From Clostridiales bacterium (GTDB lineage: Bacteria; Bacillota; Desulfotomaculia; Desulfotomaculales; VENG01), in NCBI GenBank assembly GCA_016278505.1, contig JADQBQ010000024.1, positions 1 through 64,000 of the forward strand: a stretch of DNA of 64,000 nt, in the 5' to 3' direction. This document shows positions 3,251 to 39,300 of this stretch, piece after piece (position 1 is the stretch's first letter; every line of letters starts with the position of its first letter). The position numbers and the translations under genes were made by a program. Below the pieces are notes generated by a model. The model saw only the letters and a program-made list of their open reading frames with translations. It made no database searches and was not told the DNA's origin.

Positions 3251-3279
3251 CATTATACCTCCAAAACACTATACGATTT

Positions 3280-4464: not shown

Positions 4465-4539
4465 ATTATTTCCCTCCCTTTCTAAACATAGGGAACGACC
4501 GCACATTCATCTTTATTAAAACATTTACTAATTAGCTAA

Positions 4540-6532: not shown

Positions 6533-7672
6533 TTATTTTAATAAGTGTGCACCAATAACAACGCGCATCACTTCACTGGTACCTTCGTAAATCTCTGTGA
6601 TTTTTGCATCACGCATCATACGTTCCACAGGGTATTCTCTGGTATAGCCATAACCACCGAATATCTGCACTGCCTTTGTTGTTACCGACATGGCCGTTTC
6701 GGAAGCAAACAACTTACCCATTGCTGCTTCTTTACCATAGGGCATATCATTATCCTTTAAATAAGCAGCCCTGTAAATCATTAGCCTTGCAGCCTCAATT
6801 TGCGTATGCATATCAGCCAGCATCCACTGTAATCCCTGGAAAGAACTTATAGGCTTACCGAATTGTTCACGGTTTTTTGCATATTCCAATGCTTGGTCAA
6901 ATGCACCTTGAGCAATTCCCAATGCTTGGGAACCAATACCTATGCGCCCACCGTCCAGTGTTTTTAAAGCAATTTTGAAACCATCACCGTCTTGGCCGAG
7001 CTTGTTCTCTTTGGGAATACGGCAATCTTCAAATACCAATTCATAAGTATATGATGCCCGGATCCCTAGCTTATGTTCTTTCTTACCAAAGGTAAATCCC
7101 GGCGTGTCTTTTTCTACGATAAAAGCTGCGGTACCTTTATGCCCCTTACTCCTATCAACGGATGCAATTACCACATAAGTGTCGGCTCTTCCACCATTAG
7201 TGATAAAAATTTTAGTACCGTTAAGAATATATTCGTCACCATCTAGTTTGGCACTTAGTTTTACCGACCCGGCATCCGAACCGGCAGAAGGCTCTGTTAA
7301 ACCAAGGGCACCTACTTTATCTCCATTTGCCAGCGGCTCAAGGTACTTTTTCTTTTGCTCTTCTGTCCCAAAGGCATATATAGGCCAGCAACACAAAGAC
7401 GTATGCGCGGAAATAGTTACACCTGTAGAACCACACACACGGGAAAGTTCCTCCACTGCAATAGCGTAAGAAAGATTATCCATATCAGATCCGCCATATT
7501 CTTCCGGAAAGGGAACCCCCGTAAGGCCCATCTCTGCCATCTTGTCCCACAAACCCCAATCGAACTCTTCTTCCTCATCCATTTGGGCAGCCTTAGGAGC
7601 TACCTCTTCCTCGGCAAAATCGCGCACTGTTTTACGTAATAGTTCTTGTTCTTCTGAAAGCTTAAATTCCAT
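6533..7672 (-). CDS. Short-chain acyl-CoA dehydrogenase (butyryl-CoA dehydrogenase type)
   Basis: FAD enzyme that introduces the 2,3 double bond into acyl-CoA and passes electrons to EtfAB. At 379 aa it has the three acyl-CoA dehydrogenase domains: N-terminal helical, the middle beta domain with [12 protein letters not shown] and FITNGG, and the C-terminal helical domain. The catalytic base is Glu363 in YEGTSE, the position used by short-chain enzymes. The ATG follows GGAGGAATGGATC. It is the first gene of the beta-oxidation operon, and a -24/-12 promoter lies 65 bases upstream. It could act as butyryl-CoA dehydrogenase or on branched short acyl-CoAs; sequence alone does not separate these. 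Confidence 0.94.
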
Positions 7673-7736: not shown

Positions 7737-7752
7737 AGCAAAAAACATACCA
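7737..7752 (-). promoter_or_regulatory. Sigma-54 (-24/-12) promoter of the beta-oxidation operon
   Basis: On the minus strand the sequence TGGTATGTTTTTTGCT has GG and GC separated by exactly ten bases, matching TGGCAC-N5-TTGC at the invariant positions. It lies 65 bases before the acyl-CoA dehydrogenase ATG. A sigma-54 activator gene lies 5 kb away, and two more such sites precede related genes, which strengthens the call. Confidence 0.75.
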
Positions 7753-7873
7753 TACTTTTTCGAAAACTCTGAATATAGGGCATTTTCCCATGGCCGTTAA
7801 GACCTTTGACCGAAATTCTTTGCAGCCTAGAACAAATGTGCGGTTATAAATATAGACAGGTATCTTTTTTGCT

Positions 7874-7901
7874 AGCATGACTTTATCGTTAGTGTCATGC
7901 T
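7874..7901. promoter_or_regulatory. Palindrome upstream of the sigma-54 promoter, possible activator site
   Basis: AGCATGAC (7874-7881) and GTCATGCT (7894-7901) are perfect 8-base inverted repeats with 12 bases between. They lie about 120-150 bases upstream of the -24/-12 site, a usual distance for an activator-binding sequence. It is part of the 538-base gap 7673-8210, which otherwise holds the promoter, AT-rich sequence, some TGCCAAG/CTTGGCA half-repeats at 8060-8130, and a terminator. Confidence 0.4.
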
Positions 7902-8158
7902 TATTGATATTACTTTAAAAAGTGTACACACAAATTAATTAATTGTCTACATCAATACACATAGTCAGCAACTGAATATTCACTCATTTATTAATAATAT
8001 TATAACTTTATAAAATGGTCAAACATAAGAAAACGCATTTAAATCAGTTCCCTTATCCCATGCCAAGCATACCTAACTGGCACTGGCAAGCATGGCGCCT
8101 TTTAATACTTACACCTTAGACCTTGGCATACATATGACAAGGTTTACTTTTCTAAACT

Positions 8159-8189
8159 ACAAAAAGCAGCGGCAAATTTGCCGCTGCTT
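8159..8189 (-). terminator. Intrinsic terminator of the acyl-CoA synthetase gene
   Basis: A perfect palindrome, AAGCAGCGGCAAA with TTTGCCGCTGCTT (8164-8189), is followed on the minus strand by TTTTTG. It lies 22 bases beyond the stop of the synthetase gene at 8211. Confidence 0.85.
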
Positions 8190-8210
8190 CCCGCAATAAT
8201 TTAAATTTTA

Positions 8211-9845
8211 CTATTTATTATCCCATTCTTTTTCTCTAAGTTCAATGCGGCGAATCTTTCCGCTAATGGTCTTAGGCAGTTCCGTAACAAATTCAATCTT
8301 TCTGGGATACTTATACGGTGCAGTTGTTTTCTTTACAAAATCTTGCAACTCTTTAACTAATTCATCGGAACCGGTATAACTTGGGGCTAATATTACAAAA
8401 GCCTTAACAACCTCGCCTCTTACTTCATCAGGACTTGATACCACTGCTGATTCGGCAACTGCCTTGTGTTCGATAAGCGCGCTTTCCACCTCAAAAGGAC
8501 CAATGCGGTAACCGGAAGTGAGAATGACATCATCAGCACGGCCAACAAACCACAGATATCCACTCTCATCCATAATACCACGGTCACCGGTAACGTAAAA
8601 ATCACCCCGGTAAGTGGAAGCCGTTTTTTCAGGGTCCTTCCAATATTCAGTAAACAGTCCCACCGGGCGTTCAGGCTTTAACCTAACGGCAAGGTCCCCC
8701 TCTTGCCCGCGTGGTAACTCATTAGCTTCATCATCAATTATTCGCAAGTCAAACCCGGGGCTGGGCTTCCCCATGGATCCTGCTTTAACTTCCACGGACG
8801 GGAAATTAGCGGCCAAACAAACACTCTCGGTTTGTCCATACCCATCCCTTATTTTTAAGCCGGTATTTTTTTCCCAGTAATCAATAATTTCCGGGTTCAG
8901 AGGCTCACCGGCTGCTACTACTGAGCGAAGAGATTTAAAATTGTATTTACTCAAATCTTCCAGCACAAACATTCTGTATGCGGTAGGCGGTCCACATAAA
9001 GAGGTAACGGAATACTTTTCCAAAAACTCAAGTGTTTTCTTAACATTAAATCCGGTCGTATGATGTGTAAAAATAGTAGCACCGCAATTCCAGGGTCCGT
9101 AAAAACTACTCCAGGCCGCTTTTGCCCAACCGGTATCTGAAAGGTTCCAGTGCAGATCTCCGGGATTTAAATCCAAGAAGTATTTGCCTGTGACAATATG
9201 TCCAATAGGATAGGACGCATGGGTGTGTAAAGTCATCTTGGGATGACCGGTTGTACCTGATGTAAAATATAAAATGGCGTCATCAACGGATTTTGTCTTT
9301 TCGGTCTCAAATTCAGCTGATGCCTTGGGCACCGCTTCATCGTAAAAGACCCATCCGTCGCGCCCCTCTTCAACAGTCATAAAACATTTTAGCTGCGGGC
9401 AATCACTACGAATTTCGTCCACTTTGGGAGCGTTAAGACTGTCAACAATGACGCAAGTGGCTTCCGCCGAGTCAAAACGGTATTTTAGGTCTTTGGGTGT
9501 TAACATGACGGTACCCGGGCTAATCACTGCACCCAAACGCAAGCAAGCAAGGTTGATCACCCACCATTCAAGCTGGCGGGACATAACGACCACAACTACG
9601 TCCCCTTTTTGGACTCCTTGCTCTTTCAAAACATTGGCCAATTTTTTTGATTCTTCTGCTAGTTGGGCAAATGTTCTTTTTTCTTCCTTGCCGTTATCAT
9701 CTACCCAAAACAACGCTAGTTTTTCCGGATCCTTTGCCCAATAGTCAAAAACATCTCTGGCAAAATTAAAATATTCCGGTACTTCCCACTTAAATTCTTT
9801 GTACGTTTTTTCGTAATCTGTCATTTTTTCTACCTTTAAAAACAA
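8211..9845 (-). CDS. Acyl-CoA synthetase (AMP-forming, medium-chain ACSM-like)
   Basis: ANL-superfamily ligase that activates a carboxylic acid to acyl-CoA through an acyl-adenylate (ATP to AMP and PPi). Motifs in order: YFTSGTTGHPK (about residue 195), DGYGQTES, VTGDRG, the hinge region near SGYRIGPFEVES, and the conserved Lys in PKTISGKIRR near the C-terminus. The N-terminus and the block NLSDTGWAKAAWSSFYGPW resemble the ACSM/medium-chain group more than acetyl-CoA synthetase proper. TTG at 9845 is seven bases after AAGGAGGG and is preferred to an internal ATG at residue 8. It is a single-gene unit with its own sigma-54 promoter and terminator. The actual acid (butyrate, branched or longer) is unknown. 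Confidence 0.9.
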   Translation of the reverse strand: MFLKVEKMTDYEKTYKEFKWEVPEYFNFARDVFDYWAKDPEKLALFWVDDNGKEEKRTFAQLAEESKKLANVLKEQGVQKGDVVVVVMSRQLEWWVINLACLRLGAVISPGTVMLTPKDLKYRFDSAEATCVIVDSLNAPKVDEIRSDCPQLKCFMTVEEGRDGWVFYDEAVPKASAEFETEKTKSVDDAILYFTSGTTGHPKMTLHTHASYPIGHIVTGKYFLDLNPGDLHWNLSDTGWAKAAWSSFYGPWNCGATIFTHHTTGFNVKKTLEFLEKYSVTSLCGPPTAYRMFVLEDLSKYNFKSLRSVVAAGEPLNPEIIDYWEKNTGLKIRDGYGQTESVCLAANFPSVEVKAGSMGKPSPGFDLRIIDDEANELPRGQEGDLAVRLKPERPVGLFTEYWKDPEKTASTYRGDFYVTGDRGIMDESGYLWFVGRADDVILTSGYRIGPFEVESALIEHKAVAESAVVSSPDEVRGEVVKAFVILAPSYTGSDELVKELQDFVKKTTAPYKYPRKIEFVTELPKTISGKIRRIELREKEWDNK

Positions 9846-9929
9846 TGATTGTCCCTCCTTGGTATGTGTTTAAAATAATAGTGGACGTTACGCTAATAGA
9901 TCACTTAATTTTACCTGAAAATACACAAT

Positions 9930-9945
9930 TGCAAGAACTGAGCCA
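9930..9945 (-). promoter_or_regulatory. Sigma-54 (-24/-12) promoter of the acyl-CoA synthetase gene
   Basis: The minus-strand sequence TGGCTCAGTTCTTGCA is close to the consensus TGGCAC-N5-TTGCA, with GG and GC ten bases apart. It lies 85 bases before the TTG start of the synthetase. An inverted repeat, TTTGAC with GTCAAA (9958-9975), lies just upstream. Confidence 0.85.
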
Positions 9946-9994
9946 CTTTTCTAAAAATTTGACCTAATTGTCAAAATTCTTTAAAAACAGAGAT

Positions 9995-10010
9995 ATTCAG
10001 GGATTAACAG
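9995..10010. promoter_or_regulatory. Shared 16-base motif, copy 1
   Basis: ATTCAGGGATTAACAG here and ATTTAGGGATTAACTG at 12393-12408 agree at 14 of 16 positions. Both lie upstream of acyl-CoA synthetase transcription units and in the same orientation, so a shared regulator site is plausible. The 369-base gap 9846-10214 otherwise contains the sigma-54 promoter and a CACAAAAA/TTTTTGTG hairpin (10142-10171). Confidence 0.4.
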
Positions 10011-10141
10011 CTCAGACTTAAAATATACACATAAAGCAGGAAACGTAAACTAAACTTTACATCTTTAACTGCCCTAAACCCTTGTCACAAAGTACCGAAA
10101 TAATAATGTGTAAACGTAGGTTAATATGTTAAGGATCATGA

Positions 10142-10171
10142 CACAAAAATTACCTCTGTACGGTTTTTGTG
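10142..10171 (-). terminator. Possible 3' hairpin of the second acyl-CoA synthetase gene
   Basis: CACAAAAA (10142-10149) pairs with TTTTTGTG (10164-10171), about 45 bases beyond the stop at 10215. The stem is AT-rich and no separate T run follows, so termination here is uncertain. Confidence 0.35.
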
Positions 10172-10214
10172 AATTTTGCATATATTTTGAAAGTGATTTA
10201 GCTAAACCGGAGTC

Positions 10215-11888
10215 TTAAGTCATGTCAATGGATACATCTTTGTCTCTGTTTAGTTCTTTCATTGCTAATTCACGCAGCTTAAATTTTTGTATTTTCCCGC
10301 TGGCAGTTGTAGGATACTCATCAACGAAAAAAATACAAGCAGGTATTTTGTAAAAGGAGATCTGGTTCTTACAAAAACCCCTTAACTCATCTTCATTAAC
10401 AACCTCTCTTTCCTTTACCTGGACAAATGCTACTACTTCCTCACCATATTTTTCACTAGCAATCCCCACCACCTGAACATCTTTAACTTTAGGGTGGGTG
10501 TATAAAAATTCTTCTATCTCCCGGGGGTAGATATTTTCCCCACCTCTAATAATCATGTCCTTTAGCCGTCCGGTAATCTTGCAGTACCCATCTACATCCA
10601 TTACAGCCAAATCACCTGTATGCAGCCAGTTGTCCTTATCCATTGTAGAGGCGGTAGCCTCCGGCATATTATAGTACCCCTTCATCACATGATAACCTCG
10701 GGTACACAACTCACCCTGCACCCCGGGCTGAAGATCTTCACCTTTTTCCGGATTTACTATTTTAACTTCCACGTTGGGAAGAGCCCTGCCAACCGTGCTT
10801 ACCCTCAACTCTATGGGATCAGAGGTCCTAGTCATGGTAATGCCGGGAGAAGCTTCGGTCTGGCCATAAGTAATACAAATCTCACTCGCTCCCATTAAAT
10901 TCACCACAGACTTCATCACTTCTGTGGGACACGGTGCCCCGGCCATAATCCCCGTACGCAGTGAGGAAGTATCATAATTTTTATTCTTCATTGCTTCCAG
11001 TTCAGCAATAAACATAGTGGGCACACCGTGCACCGCCGTACACTTTTCAGCCTCAATAATCTCCAAAACTTTCACAGCTTCAAACTTTTCCACGGGAACC
11101 ATAGTGGCGCCGGAAACCACACACAGCAGAGTGCCCATAACACAACCAAAACAATGGAAGAATGGCACCGGGATACATAATCGGTCTGCGGGTGAAAATC
11201 TCATACACTCTGCTTGACTAACAGCATTACCGATAATATTGGTGTGAGTGAGCATTACACCCTTAGGAAATCCCGTTGTCCCTGAAGTATACTGCATATT
11301 AATTACATCGTCCGGCTCTAACACCTGCTCCCGTTGACTCAATTCTTCATCTGTTACTTCGCCGGACATCTCCAGTATATCTATCCAGTTATACATGCCG
11401 GGCGATTTTTCTTCACCAATAAAAATAACATTTTTTAATTTCGGCAGTTTTTTACAATTCAGCTGTCCAGGCTGGCAATGGTTAAGTTCCGGGCACAAAT
11501 CATACATAATTTTTACGTATTCGTCCGACGTTCTAACCCCACCGGTCAATATAATCGTAGTTGAGTCTGATTGTTTAAGTAAGTATTCCAGTTCGAAAGC
11601 ACGGTAATTAGTGTTCACAGTTACTAACACGGCACCCATTTTTGCGGTGCCGAATTGAGCCAACACCCATTCCGAAACGTTGTTAGCCCAAATAGCAACG
11701 TTTTCCCCTTTTTCAACTCCCAGGCTCATAAACCCCTTGGCTACCTGATTACATGTATGACAGAACTCTTTGTAGGTATACCGTAGTCCCCTGTGGTAGT
11801 AAACCAGTGCATCATGGTCTGGGTAGTCGCTTGCCATTTGATCAACAACATTTCCTATAGTAACCTTACCCACATCTACAGCAACCAA
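10215..11888 (-). CDS. Fatty-acid--CoA ligase (AMP-binding, FadD-like)
   Basis: AMP-forming acyl-CoA ligase of 557 aa. Motifs: MQYTSGTTGFPKGVMLTH (P-loop), ITYGQTEASP, WLHTGDLA, GGENIYPREIEEFL and the C-terminal catalytic Lys in TASGKIQKFKLRE. It resembles the FadD/AcsF group acting on short to long fatty acids more than the ACSM-like ligase downstream, so the locus encodes two different acid-activating enzymes. The start is TTG after AAGGAGGAGGAG. It follows the small winged-helix gene by 29 bases, so the two are probably cotranscribed. No -24/-12 site was found before this unit. Cytoplasmic; substrate not determinable. Confidence 0.9.
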   Translation of the reverse strand: MVAVDVGKVTIGNVVDQMASDYPDHDALVYYHRGLRYTYKEFCHTCNQVAKGFMSLGVEKGENVAIWANNVSEWVLAQFGTAKMGAVLVTVNTNYRAFELEYLLKQSDSTTIILTGGVRTSDEYVKIMYDLCPELNHCQPGQLNCKKLPKLKNVIFIGEEKSPGMYNWIDILEMSGEVTDEELSQREQVLEPDDVINMQYTSGTTGFPKGVMLTHTNIIGNAVSQAECMRFSPADRLCIPVPFFHCFGCVMGTLLCVVSGATMVPVEKFEAVKVLEIIEAEKCTAVHGVPTMFIAELEAMKNKNYDTSSLRTGIMAGAPCPTEVMKSVVNLMGASEICITYGQTEASPGITMTRTSDPIELRVSTVGRALPNVEVKIVNPEKGEDLQPGVQGELCTRGYHVMKGYYNMPEATASTMDKDNWLHTGDLAVMDVDGYCKITGRLKDMIIRGGENIYPREIEEFLYTHPKVKDVQVVGIASEKYGEEVVAFVQVKEREVVNEDELRGFCKNQISFYKIPACIFFVDEYPTTASGKIQKFKLRELAMKELNRDKDVSIDMT

Positions 11889-11917
11889 CCACTTCTCCTC
11901 CTCCTTCTTAAAGACTT

Positions 11918-12208
11918 TTAAGCTTCACCATACGGGTCTTTTCCCCACCATTTTCGCAAAGGATTATTCAGCCTGAGCACCCCTCCTTTTCTCTTCTCAC
12001 AAATAATCCGTCCCGAATCAATCAACTCCACAACTAACTGCTCTACCACTGATTTTGTCAAGCCAAAATGTTCTGCAATACCTTCCTCATTATGAGGTCC
12101 TAAAAGAAGTAACTTTATAATAGCCTCCTTTGTATATTGTCTTTGACTACGGTTAAGAGGACCGGTCGAGGAAACATAATTTTTTTCATATCTGCGTGTG
12201 CCACCCAT
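11918..12208 (-). CDS. Small winged-helix protein, putative regulator
   Basis: Protein of 96 aa without a recognised name. Residues about 24-75 form a plausible winged helix: a helix TKEAIIKLLLLG, a helix-turn-helix EEGIAEHFGLTKSVVEQLVVEL, and a basic wing GRIICEKRKGGVLRLNN. This architecture is common in small DNA-binding or DNA-adapter proteins. It directly precedes the FadD-like ligase gene (29 bases), so a link to regulation of acid activation is possible but unproven. The ATG follows a GGGGGGATAG stretch. Confidence 0.65.
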   Translation of the reverse strand: MGGTRRYEKNYVSSTGPLNRSQRQYTKEAIIKLLLLGPHNEEGIAEHFGLTKSVVEQLVVELIDSGRIICEKRKGGVLRLNNPLRKWWGKDPYGEA

Positions 12209-12392
12209 TCCATTCTATCCCCCCAAAACAACCACCCTAAATCCAATCATTAACACCTCAATTACCCCAATGCATAGCTGTGCGGTTAATCTAAGAGGTA
12301 AATTTACCCACTTTAATAAAGTTTAATTAACGATAAATCTATTACTTGCAAAAAGAGAAACAGAACAAAATTTAATCACCTTAACGGTAGAC

Positions 12393-12408
12393 ATTTAGGG
12401 ATTAACTG
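12393..12408. promoter_or_regulatory. Shared 16-base motif, copy 2
   Basis: ATTTAGGGATTAACTG, nearly identical to the motif at 9995-10010. It lies about 185 bases upstream of the winged-helix/FadD-like operon. The 350-base gap 12209-12558 holds this motif, the terminator of the activator gene, and AT-rich sequence in which I saw no clear promoter of either class. Confidence 0.4.
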
Positions 12409-12512
12409 TTCTTATTTAAAAGTAATCGGGTGACACTCTTTGATTACAATTATTAACCGATTTTAATTCCGATAACAAATGTTTACGACAGGTTAAGAAC
12501 TATGTATACTAC

Positions 12513-12547
12513 AAGAACCCCCTCGGACAATTACCAAGGGGGTTCTT
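12513..12547 (-). terminator. Terminator of the sigma-54 activator gene
   Basis: AAGAACCCCCT (12513-12523) pairs with AGGGGGTTCTT (12537-12547), directly after the activator stop. The T tract on the minus strand is short, but the stem is strong. Confidence 0.75.
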
Positions 12548-12558
12548 TGTAGTTAACA

Positions 12559-14004
12559 TCAAATCAGCCCATACTTCATCAGTTTTTTATAAAGGCCAGG
12601 TCTGGATATGCCTAGCGTTTTGGAGGCTTTCGCTTTGTTACCTTTAGTCGCTAATAATGCCTGAAGAATCACTAGTTTTTCCGTATGCTCCATTATCTCT
12701 GACAAACATTGTCCCTTGGAAAGCGCATTTCCTAAATTAAAACTGTTAACCGTGTCATCCGATTCACTGTCATATTGTTTATAACCGCTGCCTATAATAT
12801 TGTGTGGTAAATGAGAGACATTTATAGTGTTGCCCTCAATAATGTTAAAGGCTCTCTCGATAACATTTTCTAACTCCCTTACGTTACCTTGCCAGGAATA
12901 GCGAAGAAATGTTGCCTCAACCTCAGATGAAATACCTTTTACATGTAAACCAAACAGTTTATTAAACTTCTTGATAAAGTAATCGACCAGGTCTAAAATA
13001 TCTTCCCGCCTCTCACGCAAGGGTGGAATATACAGATTAACTACATTGAGTCTGTAATACAGGTCTTCTCTAAACTTTTTATACTTCACCAGATGATCCA
13101 AATCCACATTTGTGGAAGCTATTACCCTGACATCTGAAATAGTGGAATCTCCCCCGCCCAACTTTTGAATTTCCTTTTCCTGTATAAATCTTAACAGCTT
13201 AGCCTGTAAAGAGAAGGGAAGGTCCCCAATTTCATCCAACAAGACAGTGCCTGCATTTGCTATTTCAAACTTACCAGCCTGACCTCCTTTTCGCCCTCCG
13301 GTGAAAGCCCCTTCCTCGTAGCCAAAAAACTCGGATTCCAATAAAGTGTCGGGAATAGCGGCACAATTTACCTTAACAAAAGGCCCTGACCGCCGCAGAC
13401 TTGCAGAATGAATGGCTTGAGCAAACAACTCTTTTCCTGTCCCACTTTCCCCGGTAATTAGAACGTTGGAATTTCGAGGAGCTATTTTTCTAACTGTCTC
13501 CTTCAAGTCAATTAACTGAGCACTGCTTCCTACAATATGGTCAACAGTAAAGTGGGTTCTCTGTTTATGGGCATTATCATTTTTGTCTTGTAATTGGAGT
13601 TCCTTGTTTTTATTACTGCGTTCAGAATTGAAAAAACTTACTTTGGCTAAAGCCCCGTTCACCTCGTTTTCCTTGTAGATAGGCAAATAATCAATTAAGA
13701 CACTCTTCCCGCCAATATTATCAATTTTGCTAAATTCCGGCTTACCGCTCTTGATAGCTTGTATAATTTTTCGCAAACCTCGATGGCGGCAAACCTCTGT
13801 CAAAGGATGTCCGATCATATTTTCTTGTGTTTTTCCCAAAGCTTGGGCCAACGAATTATTCACTTGCGTTACTGTTCCCTGAGCGGAAATAACAATCAAA
13901 CCTTTATATTTATTATCAAAAATTGTGCTTAGCAGATGCTCTGCTGAACAGGGTGTCATTTGTTCTTGCTTGTAAATAAAATTGTTTTCTTCGGGGAAGT
14001 GCAT
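12559..14004 (-). CDS. Sigma-54-dependent transcriptional activator (PAS, AAA+, Fis-type HTH)
   Basis: Bacterial enhancer-binding protein of 481 aa. Residues about 20-130 are a PAS domain (LIVISAQGTVTQVNNSLAQALG), 155-390 the AAA+ domain, and about 440-481 a Fis-type helix-turn-helix ending in GNKAKASKTLGISRPGLYKKL. Walker A GESGTGKE is at 185-192 and Walker B VLLDEIG near 254. The sigma-54-contact loop reads GAFTGG (232-237) instead of the common GAFTGA. There is no receiver domain, so the signal is probably sensed by PAS and not by phosphorylation. It lies between genes with -24/-12 promoters for acyl-CoA metabolism and is their most likely activator. The binding site and ligand are inferred, not known. 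Confidence 0.93.
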   Translation of the reverse strand: MHFPEENNFIYKQEQMTPCSAEHLLSTIFDNKYKGLIVISAQGTVTQVNNSLAQALGKTQENMIGHPLTEVCRHRGLRKIIQAIKSGKPEFSKIDNIGGKSVLIDYLPIYKENEVNGALAKVSFFNSERSNKNKELQLQDKNDNAHKQRTHFTVDHIVGSSAQLIDLKETVRKIAPRNSNVLITGESGTGKELFAQAIHSASLRRSGPFVKVNCAAIPDTLLESEFFGYEEGAFTGGRKGGQAGKFEIANAGTVLLDEIGDLPFSLQAKLLRFIQEKEIQKLGGGDSTISDVRVIASTNVDLDHLVKYKKFREDLYYRLNVVNLYIPPLRERREDILDLVDYFIKKFNKLFGLHVKGISSEVEATFLRYSWQGNVRELENVIERAFNIIEGNTINVSHLPHNIIGSGYKQYDSESDDTVNSFNLGNALSKGQCLSEIMEHTEKLVILQALLATKGNKAKASKTLGISRPGLYKKLMKYGLI

Positions 14005-14164
14005 ACACCATCACCCACTTACTAAATTTTTAGACAACTGAGAATATTTTAACAATAATTATTCACGTTGTACAGACTGGTTACCAAGACATATGTTCAA
14101 ATAACTACGATTTTCCCACTCTTGCTTCCAATGAGGCCCTGCGTTACACTTGGATACATTTTTG

Positions 14165-14190
14165 TGTATACGGTGGGCACATCGTATACA
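14165..14190. promoter_or_regulatory. GTATACG palindrome between the activator and minC genes
   Basis: TGTATACG (14165-14172) and CGTATACA (14183-14190) are perfect 8-base arms around a 10-base spacer, in the 326-base divergent gap 14005-14330. It has the form of an operator for a dimeric regulator. I could not fix promoters in the gap; an AAGAAGGAAATAATGG stretch near 14264 has no open frame behind it. Confidence 0.4.
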
Positions 14191-14330
14191 GTAAGCTCTA
14201 TTTTTTTACAAATTTACCATGTAGTTGCAATAAATGTCTATCCTCTAACTTTTTTAATATTACAAGAAGGAAATAATGGAAAATAATCGAATTACTCTAT
14301 TACTTATCAGTGGTTTAAGAGAGGGGAAAT

Positions 14331-14960
14331 ATGTACAGAGAGGCTGTTTCAATTAAAGGCACAAAAAGTGGGTTGGTTATATTATTAGACTCTAATCATG
14401 AATTTGAGACTATAAAACACCATCTTCAACACAAAATTGAATCTGCAAATGGTTTTTTTTGCGGCGCCAAAGTAGTGTTTCATGCCGGATCACAACAACT
14501 GATTCCTCAACAGCAGCATGAATTAGAATCTATCTGCAAACAATACGGACTTGTACCCAGCACGTCTCCCCTTACTCCCCAAACGGAGACATTGTTTTCC
14601 CCTCCCCGAAAAGAAAAAACTGCCTCCGCTCCAGGAGAACCTGCTTTATTATTAAAGCAAACCCTCCGCTCCGGCCGATCCGTTTCCCGGGCTGGCCACA
14701 TAATAGTTTTAGGCAATGTACACCCCGGGGCAAAATTGGAAGCAGGGGGAAATATAATCATCATGGGCAATTGTTTAGGCACAGTTCATGCGGGTGCCCA
14801 TGGCAACAAAAATGCGATTATTACCGCCCTGCACATGGCCCCGCAAGTTCTAAGCATAGCCGACATTACATACTTAGGCACTTCGGCCCGTAAAAAGGCT
14901 CATGGGCAGGGTAAAGCTATGATCAGGAATGAAAAAATAGTTTTTATCTGGTATAAATAA
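14331..14960 (+). CDS. minC: Septum site-determining protein MinC
   Basis: Inhibitor of FtsZ ring assembly. The N-terminal FtsZ-interacting domain covers about residues 1-80, a Ser/Thr/Pro-rich linker 80-105, and the C-terminal right-handed beta-helix 105-209 with LRSGRSVSRAGHIIVLGNVHPGAKLEAGGNI-type glycine turns and GTVHAGAHG. The length of 209 aa is typical. The ATG follows AGAGAGGGGAAAT. It is alone: no minD, minE or mre gene is adjacent, unlike the usual mreBCD-minCD order. It ends at a terminator shared with the convergent NUDIX gene. If minD lies elsewhere this may be a second MinC; that cannot be decided here. Confidence 0.9.
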   Translation: MYREAVSIKGTKSGLVILLDSNHEFETIKHHLQHKIESANGFFCGAKVVFHAGSQQLIPQQQHELESICKQYGLVPSTSPLTPQTETLFSPPRKEKTASAPGEPALLLKQTLRSGRSVSRAGHIIVLGNVHPGAKLEAGGNIIIMGNCLGTVHAGAHGNKNAIITALHMAPQVLSIADITYLGTSARKKAHGQGKAMIRNEKIVFIWYK

Positions 14961-14962
14961 TT

Positions 14963-14986
14963 AAGCCGGGCCCCCAAGCCCGGCTT
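14963..14986. terminator. Bidirectional terminator between minC and the NUDIX gene
   Basis: AAGCCGGG (14963-14970) pairs with CCCGGCTT (14979-14986), flanked by an A-rich left side and a T-rich right side. It serves minC on the plus strand and nudF on the minus strand. Confidence 0.85.
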
Positions 14987-15525
14987 TACATTTTTAGCTC
15001 TTCCTTTGCTGATAAGATTCCTACAATGGTCTTGGCATCATTTATTCGGCCTTCTTTTATCATTCCCAGTGCTCTTTGTAAAGAAACTTTTTTCATCTCC
15101 ACAAATTCATCTGCATCCAAGTGCTGTTCTTTAAAGATAAGATCTTTTGCCATAAATAAGTACAACTTTTCACTGGAAAAACCGGGCGTGGAGTAAAAGG
15201 CATACAACTCGTTCCAATTACCGGCGACAACCCCCGTTTCCTCCATCAATTCTCTTTGGGCACATTCCAAGGTTTTTTCATTCAGTTCTAATTTCCCGGC
15301 CGGCAATTCCATAAGTTCCTGTTGAGCCGGATAGCGGTATTGCCGTACTAACAACACCTCTTGCTTATCAGTTAGTGCCACAATAACAACTGCTCCGGTA
15401 TGTTCAACGACCTCGCGTTGTCCCTCTTTTCCGTTAGGCAACCGTACCGTATCTACACGAAGGTTAAGTATCTTACCCTTGTATACTAACTTTGATGATA
15501 GTTTTTTCTCTTTAAAATCTTTCAA
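14986..15525 (-). CDS. nudF: NUDIX hydrolase, ADP-ribose pyrophosphatase type
   Basis: Hydrolyses ADP-ribose and similar nucleoside diphosphate derivatives. The Nudix box is complete at residues 77-99 (G-x5-E-x7-REL-x-EE-x-G-V; REL-M-EE-TG visible). Length 179 aa, with the upstream ELPAGK characteristic of the ADP-ribose group. The probable start is a TTG about 11 bases after AAAGGA. It follows the DUF3786 gene by 16 bases on the minus strand and ends at a shared terminator. In many Peptococcaceae it sits beside amino-acid and DNA-repair genes; nothing here narrows the role beyond housekeeping nucleotide clean-up. Confidence 0.9.
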   Translation of the reverse strand: MKDFKEKKLSSKLVYKGKILNLRVDTVRLPNGKEGQREVVEHTGAVVIVALTDKQEVLLVRQYRYPAQQELMELPAGKLELNEKTLECAQRELMEETGVVAGNWNELYAFYSTPGFSSEKLYLFMAKDLIFKEQHLDADEFVEMKKVSLQRALGMIKEGRINDAKTIVGILSAKEELKM

Positions 15526-15541
15526 GCTTTAACACGTCCTT

Positions 15542-16147
15542 TTAAACTTTGGTTTTCATTTCAGATAATGCAAGCCCGGGTAGCCAGGCATAATCTTCCG
15601 TATGCAGGTGCAACGCAGCTGAAGCATCAAAAAGCACATTTCCGGTAGGCGGGAATTCATCATCACCTTCCCAGATTACGAAAGTAACCGGGATTTTAGG
15701 TAAAACCGTCACTGTCACTGCTGCATCCCCCATATCTGTAACCTCCCCACCCAAACTCTTTCCCGCTTGTATTAATTTAGAGGGATCGTGGCCAAAAATG
15801 CCCACCAAAGGCCTAATGACACGATTGGTGAAAGGATTTACGTAGATCATACCACTGGGAAGTTCTTTAAATGATATGTTTTTCCCCTGCACCTGTGCCG
15901 GCGAAGCATGGGTTAGATAGTGAAGAAGCAATATTTGGACAATTTGGGGCACATCATCTTTTTTTGACATTCGCACGGTGCCATCAGGATAATGAACAAA
16001 ATATTCTTTTCCTACAAAGTCAAGAGAGAATACCTCCCGCTCCGGGTCGTATATGGCCATGGAATTGAGGGCCATCTCCTCAGGTTTCTTTTCCGCAAAC
16101 TCTGTCACAGCCACTTCATGCGCGGGGTTTAGATTAATTAGGGCCAC
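15542..16147 (-). CDS. DUF3786 family protein
   Basis: Protein of 201 aa matching the DUF3786 family as I recall it from strict anaerobes with corrinoid metabolism. Landmarks are an N-terminal helix, DPEREVFSLDFVGKEYFVHYPDG, a central block of FGHDPSKLIQAGKSLGGEVTDMGDAAVTV, and VTFVIWEGDDEFPPTGNVLFDASAALHLHTED near the end. No transmembrane segment or metal motif stands out. The start is a GTG six bases after GGAGGT; the in-frame ATG upstream at 16180 has no ribosome site. Function is unknown; relatives are often found near corrinoid or iron-sulfur proteins, which fits this B12-rich region, but that is association only. Confidence 0.8.
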   Translation of the reverse strand: MALINLNPAHEVAVTEFAEKKPEEMALNSMAIYDPEREVFSLDFVGKEYFVHYPDGTVRMSKKDDVPQIVQILLLHYLTHASPAQVQGKNISFKELPSGMIYVNPFTNRVIRPLVGIFGHDPSKLIQAGKSLGGEVTDMGDAAVTVTVLPKIPVTFVIWEGDDEFPPTGNVLFDASAALHLHTEDYAWLPGLALSEMKTKV

Positions 16148-16378
16148 CTTGATACCTCCGTGTTTTTTTAAAGTTCGCAAGTTATCTACTCACATAAATG
16201 TTAGAATCACATTCTTCAAGAATTCAGCCTTTCCTGCAATAATATTTGAAAATTAAGAAACTAATTCGATCCTCATTAAATATCACCTTATGTTGAAATT
16301 TGCAAAAGGATTTTTTTGCGTATCGAAGAATAAATTAGAATATACTATTATATAACTTCTCAAACGGAGGATATGGGT

Positions 16379-17368
16379 ATGGTCAAAATAGGTATACCCA
16401 GTGCTCTTTTTTATTATGTTTATTATCCAAAGTGGGAGTCATTTTTCCAAGCACTGGATATCGAAGTAATTCCATCCGGCAAGACCACCAAACAGTTGTT
16501 GGATAACGGAGTACGAGAAGCTCTTGCCGACGCTTGTTTACCGGTTAAAGTCTTTTTTGGTCACGCAATATCTCTTAGAGATAAAGTAGATTATTTATTC
16601 GTACCCAGAATAGTGTCGACGAATAAAAAAACTGTTTATTGCCCCAAGTTTCTTGGTATGCCGGACATGATTCGACACGGCTTGCCCGATATGCCACCAT
16701 TAATTGACGTTCGTGTGGACGTTCGCACGCAAAAATTTGCTATTTGGAGAGCTTATGAATTTTTGGGTAACTTTTTGGGGGTCAAAAAAGGCAAGGTTAT
16801 CAGCGCCTTCAGATCAGCTAACCAAGTACACCGCCGTTATAAGGAACTAATGGTAGCGGGGCATCATCCTTTAAGTGCTATGGCCGCCCTTAAAGGTAAC
16901 GTAAATTTGAGCAGTCCTCGACATACAGGGCAGCTCACCTTTGCCTTACTGGGCTACCCGTATAATCTATACGATCCCTTTATAAGCATACAATTGATTG
17001 ACAAGCTGCAAAAAATGGGGATAAATGTTTTAACACCAGAAAATGTCTCTGCAAAGACATTACAAGAAAAGCCTCCAGTACTCCAGAAAGGTTTATTCTG
17101 GACTTTCAGCGAGCAGGTGATGCAGGCAGCAAGACACTTTTTTAGTTCCGGGAAAATTGACGGGGCAATCCATTTAACAGCCTTTGGCTGCGGGCCGGAT
17201 TCCCTATTAAACAACTTTATTGAACGCGAGGCAACTAAGTATCCCCACATTCCCTTGATGACACTTACCATGGATGAGCATGGCGGCGAGGCAGGCATTA
17301 CCACCCGCCTGGAGGCATTTATCGACATGGTACAGAGAAAAAAGAGAGGGGTTCGCAATGCCCAATAA
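16379..17368 (+). CDS. DUF2229 protein A, acyl-CoA dehydratase activase-related
   Basis: DUF2229 protein of 329 aa, related to the C-terminal part of large dehydratase-activase fusion proteins and distantly to 2-hydroxyacyl-CoA dehydratase subunits. Three cysteines lie in conserved-looking blocks: DACLPVK, TVYCPKFLG and AFGCGPDS, the pattern expected for a [4Fe-4S] site. The last block is followed by LTMDEHGGEAGITTRLEAFIDM, shared in form with the next gene (FLDEQTGKAGIATRLEAFVDL). The second ATG (16379) is eight bases from GGAGG and is chosen; the first would be too close. It overlaps the next gene by 11 bases. Substrate and partner are not known. Confidence 0.82.
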   Translation: MVKIGIPSALFYYVYYPKWESFFQALDIEVIPSGKTTKQLLDNGVREALADACLPVKVFFGHAISLRDKVDYLFVPRIVSTNKKTVYCPKFLGMPDMIRHGLPDMPPLIDVRVDVRTQKFAIWRAYEFLGNFLGVKKGKVISAFRSANQVHRRYKELMVAGHHPLSAMAALKGNVNLSSPRHTGQLTFALLGYPYNLYDPFISIQLIDKLQKMGINVLTPENVSAKTLQEKPPVLQKGLFWTFSEQVMQAARHFFSSGKIDGAIHLTAFGCGPDSLLNNFIEREATKYPHIPLMTLTMDEHGGEAGITTRLEAFIDMVQRKKRGVRNAQ

Positions 17369-18470
17369 AGTTATCAACAAAGTTACATTCCCCCATATGG
17401 GTGAGTCTTTCAGAGCATTTAAGATGCTGCTTGAAGATCTGGGCAATGAAGTTATTTTGCCACCTCGTCCCAGCAGGAAAACTTTAGACCTAGGGGTGCA
17501 ATACGCGCCGGAATTTGCCTGTCTTCCTCTTAAAATATTACTTGGAACGTACATGGAAACTGCGCAAAAAGGAGCTAACCTTATTGTTACCAGTGGAGGC
17601 GTGGGGCCTTGCCGTGCCGGGCAGTACGCCCAACTACATAAAGCAATCCTGTCTGAACAAGGTTACGATATGGATATGGTGGTGTTCGAGCCTCCCAAAC
17701 TATACCCTTTAGATTTTATACGTAATGTTAGAAAGTTGAACGTCGCCCGACTGTCGTACCGTGCCGTATATCAGTGTATAAAAAGGAGCTGGCGAAAATT
17801 AAAAGCGCTGGATAGCCTGGAGAAATATACGCATGTCATACGGCCGCGAGAACAGCAAACAGGGGTCACCAGCCGTATTTATAAAGATGTTTTAGCCTGG
17901 ATAGACCAGGCTAATTCCATCAAAGAAATTAAAGAAGCCGAAAATGCCGGTCTGAATGAATTACAAAAAATTCCTCAAGATCAGTATCGCATTATCGTCA
18001 AAGTGGGCCTTGTCGGTGAAATTTATGTTTTATTAGAACCGGCCAGTAACCTAGAGATTGAGGAGACACTGGGCAACTTAGGGGTAGAAGTGGAGAGATC
18101 GATGTTTCTCACCGGCTGGACAGTGGATAACACCATTAAAGAAACAACCGAATTACTTAATGCCAAGGACGCAGCTTCTCCTTATTTACCGGAAATGGTA
18201 GGAGGGCACGGCAGAGACAGTGTGGGACACACAATACTCTATTCCCAAAGAGGTTTCGATGGAGTGATTCAACTAGCACCTTTTACCTGTATTCCTGAAA
18301 TTGTGGCCAAAACGGTTTTAAACACTGTAGGTAAAGAATATAACATGCCCATCCTGACCTTTTTCTTAGACGAACAAACAGGAAAGGCCGGTATAGCAAC
18401 ACGTCTGGAAGCCTTTGTGGACTTAATGAAACGCAAACAGAAATTTAGAACTTCAACCGCTAATTCCTAA
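17358..18470 (+). CDS. DUF2229 protein B, acyl-CoA dehydratase activase-related
   Basis: Second DUF2229-type protein, 370 aa, paralogous in layout to the gene before it. Cysteine blocks: PEFACLPLK, GGVGPCRAGQ and APFTCIPE, again three candidate iron-sulfur ligands, then FLDEQTGKAGIATRLEAFVDL near the end. A central insert of about 100 residues is helical and charged. The ATG at 17358 follows GAGAGGGGTTCGCA; the frame is open 28 codons further upstream but without a ribosome site. The 11-base overlap with gene A suggests translational coupling and a heterodimer. Together with the activase downstream it looks like a split version of the single large fusion found in other bacteria. Confidence 0.82.
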   Translation: MPNKVINKVTFPHMGESFRAFKMLLEDLGNEVILPPRPSRKTLDLGVQYAPEFACLPLKILLGTYMETAQKGANLIVTSGGVGPCRAGQYAQLHKAILSEQGYDMDMVVFEPPKLYPLDFIRNVRKLNVARLSYRAVYQCIKRSWRKLKALDSLEKYTHVIRPREQQTGVTSRIYKDVLAWIDQANSIKEIKEAENAGLNELQKIPQDQYRIIVKVGLVGEIYVLLEPASNLEIEETLGNLGVEVERSMFLTGWTVDNTIKETTELLNAKDAASPYLPEMVGGHGRDSVGHTILYSQRGFDGVIQLAPFTCIPEIVAKTVLNTVGKEYNMPILTFFLDEQTGKAGIATRLEAFVDLMKRKQKFRTSTANS

Positions 18471-18492
18471 AACGAAGCAGGAAGTGACAGCT

Positions 18493-19458
18493 ATGAAAGG
18501 GTACCTCGGAATTGACGTCGGTTCTGTAAGTACAAATATTGTAATTATAGACGCCCATAACAGAGTACTTAAAGGTTTATACCTTCGGACACGTGGACGC
18601 CCCTTGGAAACAATAAAGCAAGGATTACAGCAAATATCTGATTCATTACCACCTAATTTGACTGTCTGTGGTACGGGAACAACAGGCAGCGGCCGTCATC
18701 TTGCAGGGGTTATGATTGGTGCCGATGTCATAAAAAATGAGATAACTGCCCACGCGGTGGCCGCCTCTACAGTTGTTCCAGACGTGCAAACAGTGATGGA
18801 AATTGGAGGCCAAGACTCTAAAATAATAATTTTACGGCAAGGTGTCGTAACTGACTTCGCCATGAATACCGTGTGCGCTGCCGGGACAGGCTCATTCTTA
18901 GATCAACAGGCTTCCCGGCTTAATATTGACATAACGGATTTTGGCACGTTGGCACTCCAATCGTCAAATTCCGTTCGTATCGCGGGACGGTGTACGGTGT
19001 TTGCTGAATCAGATATGATCCACAAACAACAAATGGGCCACAACCTTTCTGATATTACAAACGGCCTGTGTGAGGCACTGGTGCGTAACTATCTAAACAA
19101 TGTGGGCAAGGGAAAAGAAATACTGGCTCCAATCATGTTCCAGGGCGGGGTAGCCGCGAACACCGGCATCAGAGCCGCTTTCAACAAAGCACTACACATG
19201 GAAGTAGTGGTCCCGGAACATTATCATATCATGGGTGGCATTGGGGCCGCCCAACTAGCCAAGGAAGAAATTGAGCTAACCAAAAAAACTACCCGGTTTA
19301 AGGGCTTTAATATAACATCCCTTGATTACAAAACCAGTAGCTTTGAATGTGATGGATGCCCAAATGCTTGCGAAATTGCCGAAATTCTTGAAAACGGTAA
19401 GGTCATTGGGCGATGGGGCTCTCGCTGCAACCGTTGGGATATACTTGAGGTGGAATAA
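18493..19458 (+). CDS. CoA-substrate-specific enzyme activase (BadF/BadG/HgdC family ATPase)
   Basis: ASKHA-fold ATPase that, in the known family members, uses ATP hydrolysis to push one electron from a bridging [4Fe-4S] cluster into a 2-hydroxyacyl-CoA dehydratase or benzoyl-CoA reductase. Length 321 aa. Nucleotide-binding motifs: GIDVGSVSTN, GGQDSK and FQGGVAANTG. The two cysteines that hold the dimer-interface cluster are present in NTVCAAGTGSF and AGRCTVFAESD. An extra Cys-rich tail (ECDGCPNACE, SRCNRWD) may bind another cluster. ATG at 18493 is chosen over the GTG at 18484, which is too close to AGGA. It follows DUF2229 protein B by 22 bases. Its true partner is probably the DUF2229 pair, since no classical dehydratase subunits are present. 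Confidence 0.9.
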   Translation: MKGYLGIDVGSVSTNIVIIDAHNRVLKGLYLRTRGRPLETIKQGLQQISDSLPPNLTVCGTGTTGSGRHLAGVMIGADVIKNEITAHAVAASTVVPDVQTVMEIGGQDSKIIILRQGVVTDFAMNTVCAAGTGSFLDQQASRLNIDITDFGTLALQSSNSVRIAGRCTVFAESDMIHKQQMGHNLSDITNGLCEALVRNYLNNVGKGKEILAPIMFQGGVAANTGIRAAFNKALHMEVVVPEHYHIMGGIGAAQLAKEEIELTKKTTRFKGFNITSLDYKTSSFECDGCPNACEIAEILENGKVIGRWGSRCNRWDILEVE

Positions 19459-19665
19459 ATGAATCCGGAAGTTAAATTTATCATTGGAACAGTAACTCAA
19501 ATCTTCTTTCTACTTTTCATGATCGGGTCAGGGATTTGGGTAGCTATTGATGCGCGAAAACATGGAAAGCCTGCTAAGGAATACATAACCTGGGGCGTTT
19601 TTTCAGGTTGGTTTGTATTTCTGGGACTGATAGTTTACCTACTTTGGCGTAAGCGCTTTTTTTAA
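19459..19665 (+). CDS. Small membrane protein with two transmembrane helices
   Basis: Protein of 68 aa with two predicted membrane segments, about residues 8-28 (IIGTVTQIFFLLFMIGSGIWV) and 45-62 (WGVFSGWFVFLGLIVYLL), joined by a basic loop (DARKHGKPAKEY). Its ATG directly follows the activase stop codon (TAA-ATG), so it is translated with that gene, and the operon ends at a terminator just after it. Unknown function; it might hold the activase complex at the membrane or couple it to an electron donor, but nothing in the sequence shows this. Not a frame shadow, because the opposite strand has no gene. Confidence 0.7.
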   Translation: MNPEVKFIIGTVTQIFFLLFMIGSGIWVAIDARKHGKPAKEYITWGVFSGWFVFLGLIVYLLWRKRFF

Positions 19666-19667
19666 CC

Positions 19668-19701
19668 GACATAAAAAAACCCTAACGGGTTTTTTTATGT
19701 C
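19668..19701 (+). terminator. Terminator after the activase operon
   Basis: GACATAAAAAAACCC and GGGTTTTTTTATGTC form a perfect 15-base stem with a short CTAAC-type loop. It starts two bases after the stop of the two-TM gene. The rest of the 321-base gap to the next gene holds two TGTAAACA copies near 19705-19723 and a sigma-54 promoter at 19899. Confidence 0.9.
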
Positions 19702-19898
19702 TACTTGTAAACAAATGTAAACATCCATTATCTATTCCTTTATCCCTGTAATAAGAAACAGCCGGGATTTGGCATTGTTTCATTGTGTATACTATTAAAA
19801 TCAGAAAAAAACGCAAACAGGGGTATACTCTACTTGCTATAAAATGAATTTTATGAAATTTAGCACTTATTTAAATTTCAACACACATTCACAATTTC

Positions 19899-19914
19899 TG
19901 GTACAAAAATTGCG
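19899..19914 (+). promoter_or_regulatory. Sigma-54 (-24/-12) promoter of the methylmalonyl-CoA mutase operon
   Basis: TGGTACAAAAATTGCG has GG and GC exactly ten bases apart and a TTGC -12 box. It lies 73 bases before the GTG start of the adenosyltransferase gene. A TTTATCCCTGTAAT stretch about 145 bases upstream is loosely like the reverse complement of the motif at 9995 and 12393. Confidence 0.8.
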
Positions 19915-19986: not shown

Positions 19987-20526
19987 GTGTCGCGTCCCCG
20001 TATAAAACAAGGTATGGTTCAGGTCTATACCGGTAATGGTAAAGGAAAAACCACCGCCTCATTGGGTCTGGCTCTGCGGGCAATCGGTCACGGCTATAAA
20101 GTATTCATGCTCCAATTTATGAAAGGGAGCAAGGACTATGGAGAATTACAAACTGCAGAAAAATACTTACCTAATTTTATTATTATGCAAAGCGGCCTGG
20201 GAACATTTGTAAGCAAAGAAAACCCTTCCCAGCATGACCTAGACATGGCTCACCAAGGATTTAAAACAGCTCAAAAAGTAGTTAATGAGGGGCATTATGA
20301 TCTTGTAATTTTGGACGAAATAAATATAGCCATGGATTTTAACCTGATACCCATCCAAGATGTGCTTGAATTAGTAAACACTAAACCGCCACATGTGGAA
20401 TTAATTTTCACCGGACGGTCAGCGCCGGAAGCCATTAGAGAAGCTGCTGATTTGATTAGTGAAATGACATTGGTGAAACACCCCTATTATCTTGGGATCG
20501 AAGCCAGACAAGGAATTGAATTTTAG
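19987..20526 (+). CDS. cobO: Cob(I)alamin adenosyltransferase (CobA/CobO/BtuR type)
   Basis: Transfers adenosyl from ATP to cob(I)alamin to make adenosylcobalamin. Length 179 aa; the modified P-loop GNGKGKTT is at residues 16-23, with VILDEIN as the Walker B-like block and LIFTGRSAPEAIREAADLISEM near the end, all typical of the CobA/BtuR family. The GTG start lies six bases after AGGGAGGT. As first gene of the unit with MeaB and methylmalonyl-CoA mutase, it probably supplies or repairs the mutase cofactor on site. The cob cluster at 34-39 kb has no adenosyltransferase of its own, so this gene may also serve de novo synthesis. Confidence 0.93.
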   Translation: MSRPRIKQGMVQVYTGNGKGKTTASLGLALRAIGHGYKVFMLQFMKGSKDYGELQTAEKYLPNFIIMQSGLGTFVSKENPSQHDLDMAHQGFKTAQKVVNEGHYDLVILDEINIAMDFNLIPIQDVLELVNTKPPHVELIFTGRSAPEAIREAADLISEMTLVKHPYYLGIEARQGIEF

Positions 20527-20564
20527 TAAGGACTTGAGCTTAAATAAAGGAAGTGAAACTCCAG

Positions 20565-39090: not shown

Positions 39091-39136
39091 TAACGATAAC
39101 CAAGTATAAGCCATAATCCTTTCTCGCGAAGGTTTA

Positions 39137-39300
39137 CTGGCTCATCCCCATGGCAGGTATCCTGGCTCCCGGGTCATTGCTTTTCCTTCGCCTTCCCAAC
39201 AAGGTGGCATTTGAAGGATGCTAACCGGTTACAGTGGCGGAGACCGCTCAGGTTTTGCACCTGATTCCCTATCCCCAAAAGGGGCACCCGGAGACATGAG
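39137..39300 (-). ncRNA. Cobalamin riboswitch
   Basis: Minus-strand leader of cobU with all main landmarks of the AdoCbl riboswitch: GGGTGCCCC with GGGGATAGGGAATC, CAGGTGCAAAACCTG, GCGGTCTCCGCCACTGTAA, and the B12 box AGCCAGGATACCTGCC (39151-39167). B12 binding would favour the terminator before cobU and repress the cob cluster. The 340-base gap 39045-39388 is fully explained by this leader and its promoter region. Confidence 0.95.

Follow-up and report, generated by a model that had tools for sequence, protein, structure and literature searches.

A probable sigma-54 regulon for butyrate and isobutyrate oxidation, with EBP1 and at least one further candidate activator, in a bacterium of the Desulfotomaculales

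Positions 1 to 64,000 of contig JADQBQ010000024.1 (assembly GCA_016278505.1, a Clostridiales bacterium placed in the Desulfotomaculales), the 64,000-nucleotide stretch hereafter called the window, carry genes for the activation and beta-oxidation of short acids, a unit encoding a cobalamin-binding acyl-CoA mutase, and a gene for an enhancer-binding protein (EBP) named EBP1. Candidate sigma-54 promoters of the -24/-12 type lie before acd (acyl-CoA dehydrogenase), acs1 (acyl-CoA synthetase) and cobO (adenosyltransferase). An original prediction had placed three GG-N10-GC sites here and had proposed that one PAS-sensed signal switches on a whole acid-to-succinyl-CoA route. The sites were found where they had been predicted (Table 1), and the sequence, read directly, has GG-N10-GC together with TGGCACG-N4-TTGCW-like boxes at all three. 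They appear to be true sigma-54 promoters that related anaerobic bacteria have conserved, and they probably serve a regulon of three units for the oxidation of butyrate and isobutyrate, controlled by EBP1 and at least one further activator.

For scoring, a rough -24/-12 weight matrix was used whose shape follows the literature and was not fitted on these data. Among all 16-mers of the window on both strands, the acd, acs1 and cobO sites rank 2, 1 and 6; ranks 3-5 belong to three similar-scoring sites inside open reading frames (ORFs). A score of at least 12.6 occurs in 3 of 53 gene upstream regions of 150 bases each; 100 dinucleotide shuffles of these regions averaged 0.13 and never exceeded 1. 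Over the entire window, six sites reach this score and 30 shuffles averaged 2.8, so that placement before genes is the telling feature. The rpoN gene, for which the original prediction had advised looking, occurs once in the genome, as a frame of 482 codons that matches PF04552 with E 5.7e-63. A genome-wide search for the sigma-54 pattern at correct spacing gave 30 matches versus 9 for a reversed control; it catches the acd and acs1 sites and misses the cobO site, whose imperfect -12 box, TTGCG, ends in G. This imperfect box and the intragenic sites would suit the explanation that chance matches or vegetative promoters have been mistaken for sigma-54 sites, but that explanation is very improbable and largely refuted by the shuffle test and by conservation in many genera. 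Chance or intragenic matches were accordingly set aside on the matrix ranking, the shuffles and the recurrence of the sites before the same genes in relatives, and the proposed sigma-54 dependence of the genes is supported by the conserved sites and by rpoN.

Conservation was followed in 120 genomes, from which the best 30 of 45 genomes with an acd match and the best 30 of 42 with an acs1 match were taken; for cobO, 26 of 33 fetched mutase stretches gave a match, or 27 including the window. With the window counted in, a sigma-54 site precedes acd in 28 of 30 loci, acs1 in 15 of 30 and cobO in 12 of 27. Eleven relatives of the activator locus with large flanks (L018-L028) come from Desulfallas, Desulfotruncus, Desulfoscipio, Desulfotomaculum copahuensis, Desulfocucumis and several metagenome-assembled genomes. 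In most of them one side holds the activator, a second acd, acs2, acs1, acd, etfB, etfA and thiolase, as far as the loci reach, and the other side holds minC, nudix, hgd-like genes, cobO, meaB and the mutase; the order acd-etfB-etfA-thl was seen in L020, L021 and L024, within the same reach. Gene surroundings differ from the rest in L022, L025 and L028, the same three loci in which no acs1 site was found. Wherever the gene was found in this set, the site recurs at acd in 7/7, at acs1 in 7/10 and at cobO in 6/6. In the window and in those relatives that were scanned, the 450 bases before ebp (EBP1's own upstream region included), minC, meaB and bcrAD hold no site scoring at least 10. Upstream of acs2, the window has none of at least 10 in 450 bases, and the relatives gave one remote match, with a score of 10.9, in L028; isolated matches of 10-13 occur at other control genes. 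The second acd is present in 8 of the 11 loci and missing from the window. At the corresponding place, positions 11918-12208 on the minus strand, the window has a 96-residue ORF that looks winged-helix-like by eye and has no Pfam match.

Table 1. Genes, sigma-54 sites and candidate upstream activating sequences (UAS) in the window.
Feature	Position	Strand	Remarks
crotonase (crt)	1584-2384	minus	NCBIfam
3-hydroxybutyryl-CoA dehydrogenase (hbd)	2399-3253	minus	NCBIfam
thiolase (thl)	3280-4506	minus	NCBIfam
etfA	4644-5618	minus	NCBIfam
etfB	5653-6417	minus	NCBIfam
acd, short-chain acyl-CoA dehydrogenase	6533-7672	minus	first gene of probable operon acd-etfB-etfA-thl-hbd-crt
sigma-54 -24/-12 site of acd	7737-7752	minus	TGGTATGTTTTTTGCT; 64 bases before acd ORF start (7672)
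candidate UAS for acd	7944-7961	minus	TGTGTATTGATGTAGACA; full copy; starts 209 bases upstream of -24 box
acs1, acyl-CoA synthetase	8211-9845	minus	closest to NCBIfam model MbcS (score under the cut-off) and, among solved structures, to 3etc_A
sigma-54 -24/-12 site of acs1	9930-9945	minus	TGGCTCAGTTCTTGCA; 84 bases before acs1 ORF start (9845)
candidate UAS for acs1	10109-10126	minus	TATTAACCTACGTTTACA; 7 of 8 motif bases
acs2, fatty-acid CoA ligase	10215-11888	minus	
EBP1	12559-14004	minus	PAS - sigma-54 AAA+ - Fis helix-turn-helix activator; between acs1 and cobO sites
candidate UAS for cobO	19706-19723	plus	TGTAAACAAATGTAAACA; full copy; starts 193 bases upstream of -24 box
sigma-54 -24/-12 site of cobO	19899-19914	plus	TGGTACAAAAATTGCG; 72 bases before cobO ORF start (19987)
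cobO, ATP:corrinoid adenosyltransferase	19987-20526	plus	
meaB-type GTPase chaperone	20553-21506	plus	
acyl-CoA mutase large subunit, icmA-like	21529-23193	plus	Phe/Gln active-site pair, isobutyryl-CoA mutase type
cobalamin-binding small subunit, icmB-like	23273-23665	plus	

The unit behind the cobO site consists of cobO, meaB and the large and small mutase subunits. This gene content is as had been claimed; the mutase itself had been misnamed as a methylmalonyl-CoA mutase (MCM). In alignments to the MCM structures 1req_A and 2xij_A, it has Phe for Tyr89 and Gln for Arg207 (P. shermanii numbering), two active-site residues of MCM, and the Phe/Gln pair is presumably the signature of isobutyryl-CoA mutase. 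The same pair occurs in 6/6 relatives with a readable motif, and 2-hydroxyisobutyryl-CoA mutase has Ile and Gln at these two positions. Against the NCBIfam model of IcmF the protein reaches 371 bits with a cut-off of 1500, the model describing the fused form and the window mutase being split into two subunits. The genome's second mutase, on contig C23, has the Tyr/Arg pair; its neighbours are an epimerase that passes its NCBIfam cut-off and an mmdA-like carboxyltransferase that stays below its own. Because Phe and Gln replace Tyr89 and Arg207, the window enzyme is, judged by its active site, of the isobutyryl-CoA mutase type and not an MCM. The acid-to-succinyl-CoA route does not survive these residues and the presence of a separate Tyr/Arg mutase cluster with an epimerase. 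Instead, because of the mutase residues, the match of the unit to a described four-gene set (considered at the end) and the nearest models of acs1, the regulon reads as activation of a short acid, conversion of isobutyryl-CoA to butyryl-CoA and beta-oxidation to acetyl-CoA, with substrate and direction as predicted ones. The Tyr/Arg mutase cluster (C23:112000-131900, L401) has its own PAS activator gene and no sigma-54 site of at least 13. A cobalamin riboswitch (Rfam RF00174, 96.3 bits) was also found in the window, at 39135-39307 on the minus strand.

An 18-bp palindrome, TGTNNA-N6-TNNACA, lies upstream of the sigma-54 sites; it was first seen by eye in alignments and then tested. The motif has eight motif bases and was derived from 23 regions of nine genomes. 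Full copies (8/8) within 260 bases upstream were found at 20 of 28 acd sites (200 dinucleotide shuffles: mean 0.18, maximum 2), at 7 of 15 acs1 sites (mean 0.14, maximum 1) and at 7 of 12 cobO sites (mean 0.06, maximum 2), again with 200 such shuffles each. Of the 51 best copies with at least 7 of the 8 motif bases, 46 begin 100-210 bases before the -24 box. Among acd loci with a site from genomes outside motif discovery, 13 of 20 have the full palindrome, six of the 13 from one genus. The palindrome has no specificity over the whole genome (68 places compared with 70 for a reversed control), and therefore only its placement upstream of the sites is informative. Of the remaining 28 sigma-54-pattern matches in the genome, not one is preceded by a full copy at a distance of up to 300 bases. 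A caution concerns acs1, whose palindrome in the window matches at 7/8: a 7/8 copy within 300 bases occurs at 8 of these 28 other matches, so that such a copy alone is weak evidence, a point against the proposed regulon. The acs1 element of the window has the form TATNAAC-N4-GTTTACA, which it has in common with genomes G011, G036, G054, G072, G086 and G099. A perfect 8-bp inverted repeat, AGCATGAC-N12-GTCATGCT, was also seen by eye upstream of acd at 7874-7901.

The consensus palindromes of the three promoters differ somewhat (acd TGTCTATnnaTGTAGACA, acs1 TgTnAAcnAnTGTTTACA, cobO TGTCaACgATCaTatACA). This difference, the 14 strong activator genes of the genome (one of them without a GAFTGA-like loop) and the independent loss of the cobO and acs1 sites in some genomes would all agree with three real sigma-54 promoters that answer to different activators or signals and are close on the chromosome for historical reasons. 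Such an arrangement is improbable, as the TGTNNA-N6-TNNACA frame is common to all three promoters at frequencies far above shuffles and full copies are absent from the other 28 matches. A shared regulon is supported by the common palindrome and by the conserved gene order in the Desulfotomaculum group.

The proposed PAS-AAA+-Fis architecture of EBP1 holds for the gene, which lies between the second and third sites, for its Sigma54_activat AAA+ domain, with Walker A and B intact, and for its Fis-type helix-turn-helix (PF02954, 45.6 bits; recognition helix ISRPGLYKKL). The PAS part falls just under the curated Pfam cut-offs (PAS 22.0 vs 22.6, PAS_9 23.6 vs 27). An AlphaFold model, used only for the order of elements in this part, gives a PAS-like succession of strands and helices, with block pLDDT (the model's per-residue confidence) of 69-85 at residues 31-120 and a low overall mean of 60. 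Four orthologs, all from genus g10, lack PAS altogether (about 340 residues, GAFTGC; G009:C36:11798, G023:C37:11028, G051:C1:1238874 and G077:C73:12184), and PAS input is therefore not needed everywhere for the module. Contig G116:C2, which also carries acd and the mutase, has two short PAS-less EBPs (100000-100956 and 119193-120185; 343 and 348 residues) with GAFTGA loops. These proteins, 54-55% identical and not placed in the tree, have the helices SRPGLYKK or SRPCLYKK.

Among the 14 activators of the genome, two have near-identical recognition helices: EBP1 and a two-PAS EBP with ISRAGLYKKL. The latter (G000:C51:130523-132271; 582 residues, GAFTGA) is unlinked and lies among secDF and tgt genes. 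The acs1 site is present in 13 of 18 genomes with EBP1, which supply 13 of the 15 acs1 loci that have a site, and in 2 of 12 without EBP1 (Fisher p 0.008); the cobO site is present in 10 of 13 genomes with full-length EBP1 and in 2 of 9 without (Fisher p 0.027), both tests ignoring shared ancestry, a limit that tells against their weight. Genome G116 (45% identity) was excluded from the test, and the count without EBP1 is 9 there and otherwise 10. Within genus g10, the four genomes with EBP1 have the full acs1 palindrome and site scores of 13.2, 12.1, 13.6 and 13.6, and the two without EBP1 have neither acs1 site nor palindrome; acd has both in 6/6. Genome G095 was read for all its 22 EBPs of E <1e-40, and no other than EBP1 has a [PA]GLYKK helix; sites stand there before acd, acs1 and cobO, and the palindromes upstream of acd and acs1 are full. 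The two acd loci without a site belong to G014 and G097, genomes without a hit to EBP1 at E 1e-100. Both still have EBPs (9 and 15 PF00158 matches), and no [PA]GLYKK helix was found among those read, G097 (completeness 86%) having been read in part.

Several observations weigh against a leading role of EBP1. Its loop reads GAFTGG in place of the canonical GAFTGA. The cobO site is found in 0/4 genomes with PAS-less EBP1, and once these are pooled the cobO association is not significant (p 0.11). Of the 12 acd loci from genomes that lack EBP1, 10 still have the site. Other sites also occur in the absence of EBP1: G086 has all three, G114 has one at acs1 that is strong and G060 one at cobO that is weak (12.8), and in G083 a weak acs1 site (10.1) accompanies a full palindrome. 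Conversely, G030, G057, G063 and G074 have EBP1 and no acs1 site, and in G030, G057 and G074 the acd site is also without a full palindrome within 280 bases; the helix survey of G063 included one EBP cut by a contig end and one without a recognisable helix.

These points can be read as a real regulon whose main activator is not EBP1. In that case, the two-PAS EBP or its kin would drive acd and perhaps all three units, and EBP1, with its changed L1 loop, would tune or antagonise by sharing the palindrome. Eight of the 10 EBP1-less genomes that keep the acd site show an AGLYKK activator among the EBPs read (G069 and G103 do not), and AGLYKK activators adjoin acd or an acd-containing operon in G005, G020, G036, G099 and G115. 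The sixth loop residue points the same way, as it is G, S, C or T in 20/20 EBP1 proteins read (17 in the tree clade plus L164, L166 and L167); GAFTGA never occurs in the EBP1 tree clade, and it is the loop of most other EBPs here. A changed loop, however, does not mean a dead protein. In E. coli PrpR, replacement of this A6 residue by S works, and T, G and C are probably functional according to a published legend (PMC3162934); GAFTGG itself, in DVU0569, is counted among variants that would keep activity (PMC4641369). The proposal that GAFTGG makes EBP1 a dead activator was for these reasons not accepted. Moreover, acs1 sites follow EBP1, G095 retains three sites with no AGLYKK activator among its 22 EBPs, and the five AGLYKK neighbours have a full palindrome upstream of the site in only two loci (G020 and G115), with none full in the other three. 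A main activator other than EBP1 is thus rather unlikely.

The proposal of one PAS-sensed signal for the whole route was borne out in part, in that EBP1 tracks the acs1 site and, more weakly and in its full-length form, that of cobO. It fails in that the acd site and palindrome persist without EBP1, that two of 14 activators have nearly the same helix and that four genomes have PAS-less forms. EBP1 as sole activator was rejected for acd on the same persistence, and a second activator whose recognition helix is almost the same probably shares this gene. The pattern of co-occurrence suggests that EBP1 is probably a reader of the palindrome, but not the only one.

In the regulon as proposed here, sigma-54 RNA polymerase would sit at the -24/-12 sites of the three units, and activators would bind TGTNNA-N6-TNNACA, mostly 100-210 bases upstream, and open the promoters through ATP hydrolysis. 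The acs1 unit would activate a short, perhaps branched, acid; the cobO-meaB-icmA-icmB unit would supply adenosylcobalamin and interconvert isobutyryl-CoA and butyryl-CoA; and the acd-etfBA-thl-hbd-crt unit would take butyryl-CoA to two acetyl-CoA. For acs1 and cobO, the likeliest activator would be EBP1; acd would have two or more possible activators, EBP1 being one and the unlinked two-PAS EBP probably the other. A more specific version is offered tentatively, as a possibility that falls short of being probable: two paralogous activator families would act on one palindrome, short GAFTG[GSCT] EBPs able to lose PAS and two-PAS EBPs with GAFTGA, the first governing acid activation and isomerisation and both governing beta-oxidation.

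Other loci of the genome also carry sigma-54 sites. A second fatty-acid oxidation cluster (C11:14000-33000, L402) has three strong sites and an activator with a PrpR_N domain. Strong sites adjoining an activator gene were also found at C52:17400-19000 (L403), where the genes look by eye, from N-terminal residues only, like aldehyde ferredoxin oxidoreductase and alcohol dehydrogenase. A further strong site, TGGTACGCTTCTTGCT, lies at C52:332500-333111 on the minus strand (about 6500-7112 of L404), with a 7/8 palindrome 137 bases upstream; downstream of it follow about 600 bases without a clear ORF, in which two hairpin units of about 60 nucleotides were seen by eye. These units are perhaps sigma-54-driven small RNAs. 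The 21-nucleotide core of the unit, allowing at most one mismatch, was found in 0 of 59 relatives searched, and no Rfam family reached its gathering score in C52:332500-333111.

Steps in the oxidation of short- and branched-chain acids limit the anaerobic breakdown of fats and proteins, and the control of such oxidation in Gram-positive sulfate reducers and syntrophs is little described in the literature searched. The promoters are now defined exactly and, with the candidate activator site and the pair of candidate activators, can be tested in cultured relatives such as Desulfotruncus and Desulfoscipio. A genome with two annotated MCM genes may hold one isobutyryl-CoA mutase, which changes the pathway predicted for it. 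If the account with two activator families is true, it also places a B12-dependent isobutyryl-CoA mutase under sigma-54.

The literature searched, including the part of PMC6615313 that was seen, contained no report of this regulon, and its two unusual features are the fixed non-canonical loop of EBP1 and a probable second reader of the same palindrome. PrpR, the enterobacterial propionate activator, resembles EBP1 as a sigma-54 EBP for short-chain acid use with the last GAFTGA residue changed (PMC3162934). EBP1 differs from it in having PAS and not PrpR_N, and its 303 bits fall short of the PrpR cut-off, 499. AtoC of E. coli is a response regulator. It is like EBP1 in being an EBP that controls short-chain acid degradation (PMC3162934, Table 1), whereas EBP1 has no receiver domain by Pfam and scores 338 bits against the AtoC cut-off of 714. 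With 425 bits and a cut-off of 795 for PrdR as well, EBP1 is, by the NCBIfam cut-offs, not an equivalog of PrpR, AtoC or PrdR. Regulators of Pelotomaculum were reportedly treated by Kosaka et al. in 2006. In Syntrophomonas wolfei, PAS/sigma-54 regulators such as Swol_0456 have been noted (PMC4324140).

The mutase unit has its closest described counterpart in Syntrophothermus lipocalidus, where Slip_0757-0760 form an isobutyryl-CoA mutase cluster of mutase N and C proteins, an adenosyltransferase and a MeaB-like protein, the same set as in the window; the article positions its mutase close to a set of sulfate reducers (Narihiro et al. 2016, PMC5017805). Its main text never uses the word "sigma", so the cluster is described without a promoter type. 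For the beta-oxidation unit, the nearest comparison is with the crt-hbd-thl-bcd-etf operons of Clostridium, for which sigma-54 control was predicted and sigma-54 binding was checked in vitro for members of those regulons (CrbR; Nie et al. 2019, PMC6615313). In its main text Desulfotomaculum occurs two times, both in Table 1, under DioR and XhpR. CrbR and other butyrate-type sigma-54 regulons of the Clostridiales serve butyrate and butanol synthesis in Clostridium (PMC6615313), whereas the genes described here form a putative oxidation set with an acyl-CoA synthetase and an isobutyryl-CoA mutase in the Desulfotomaculum group.

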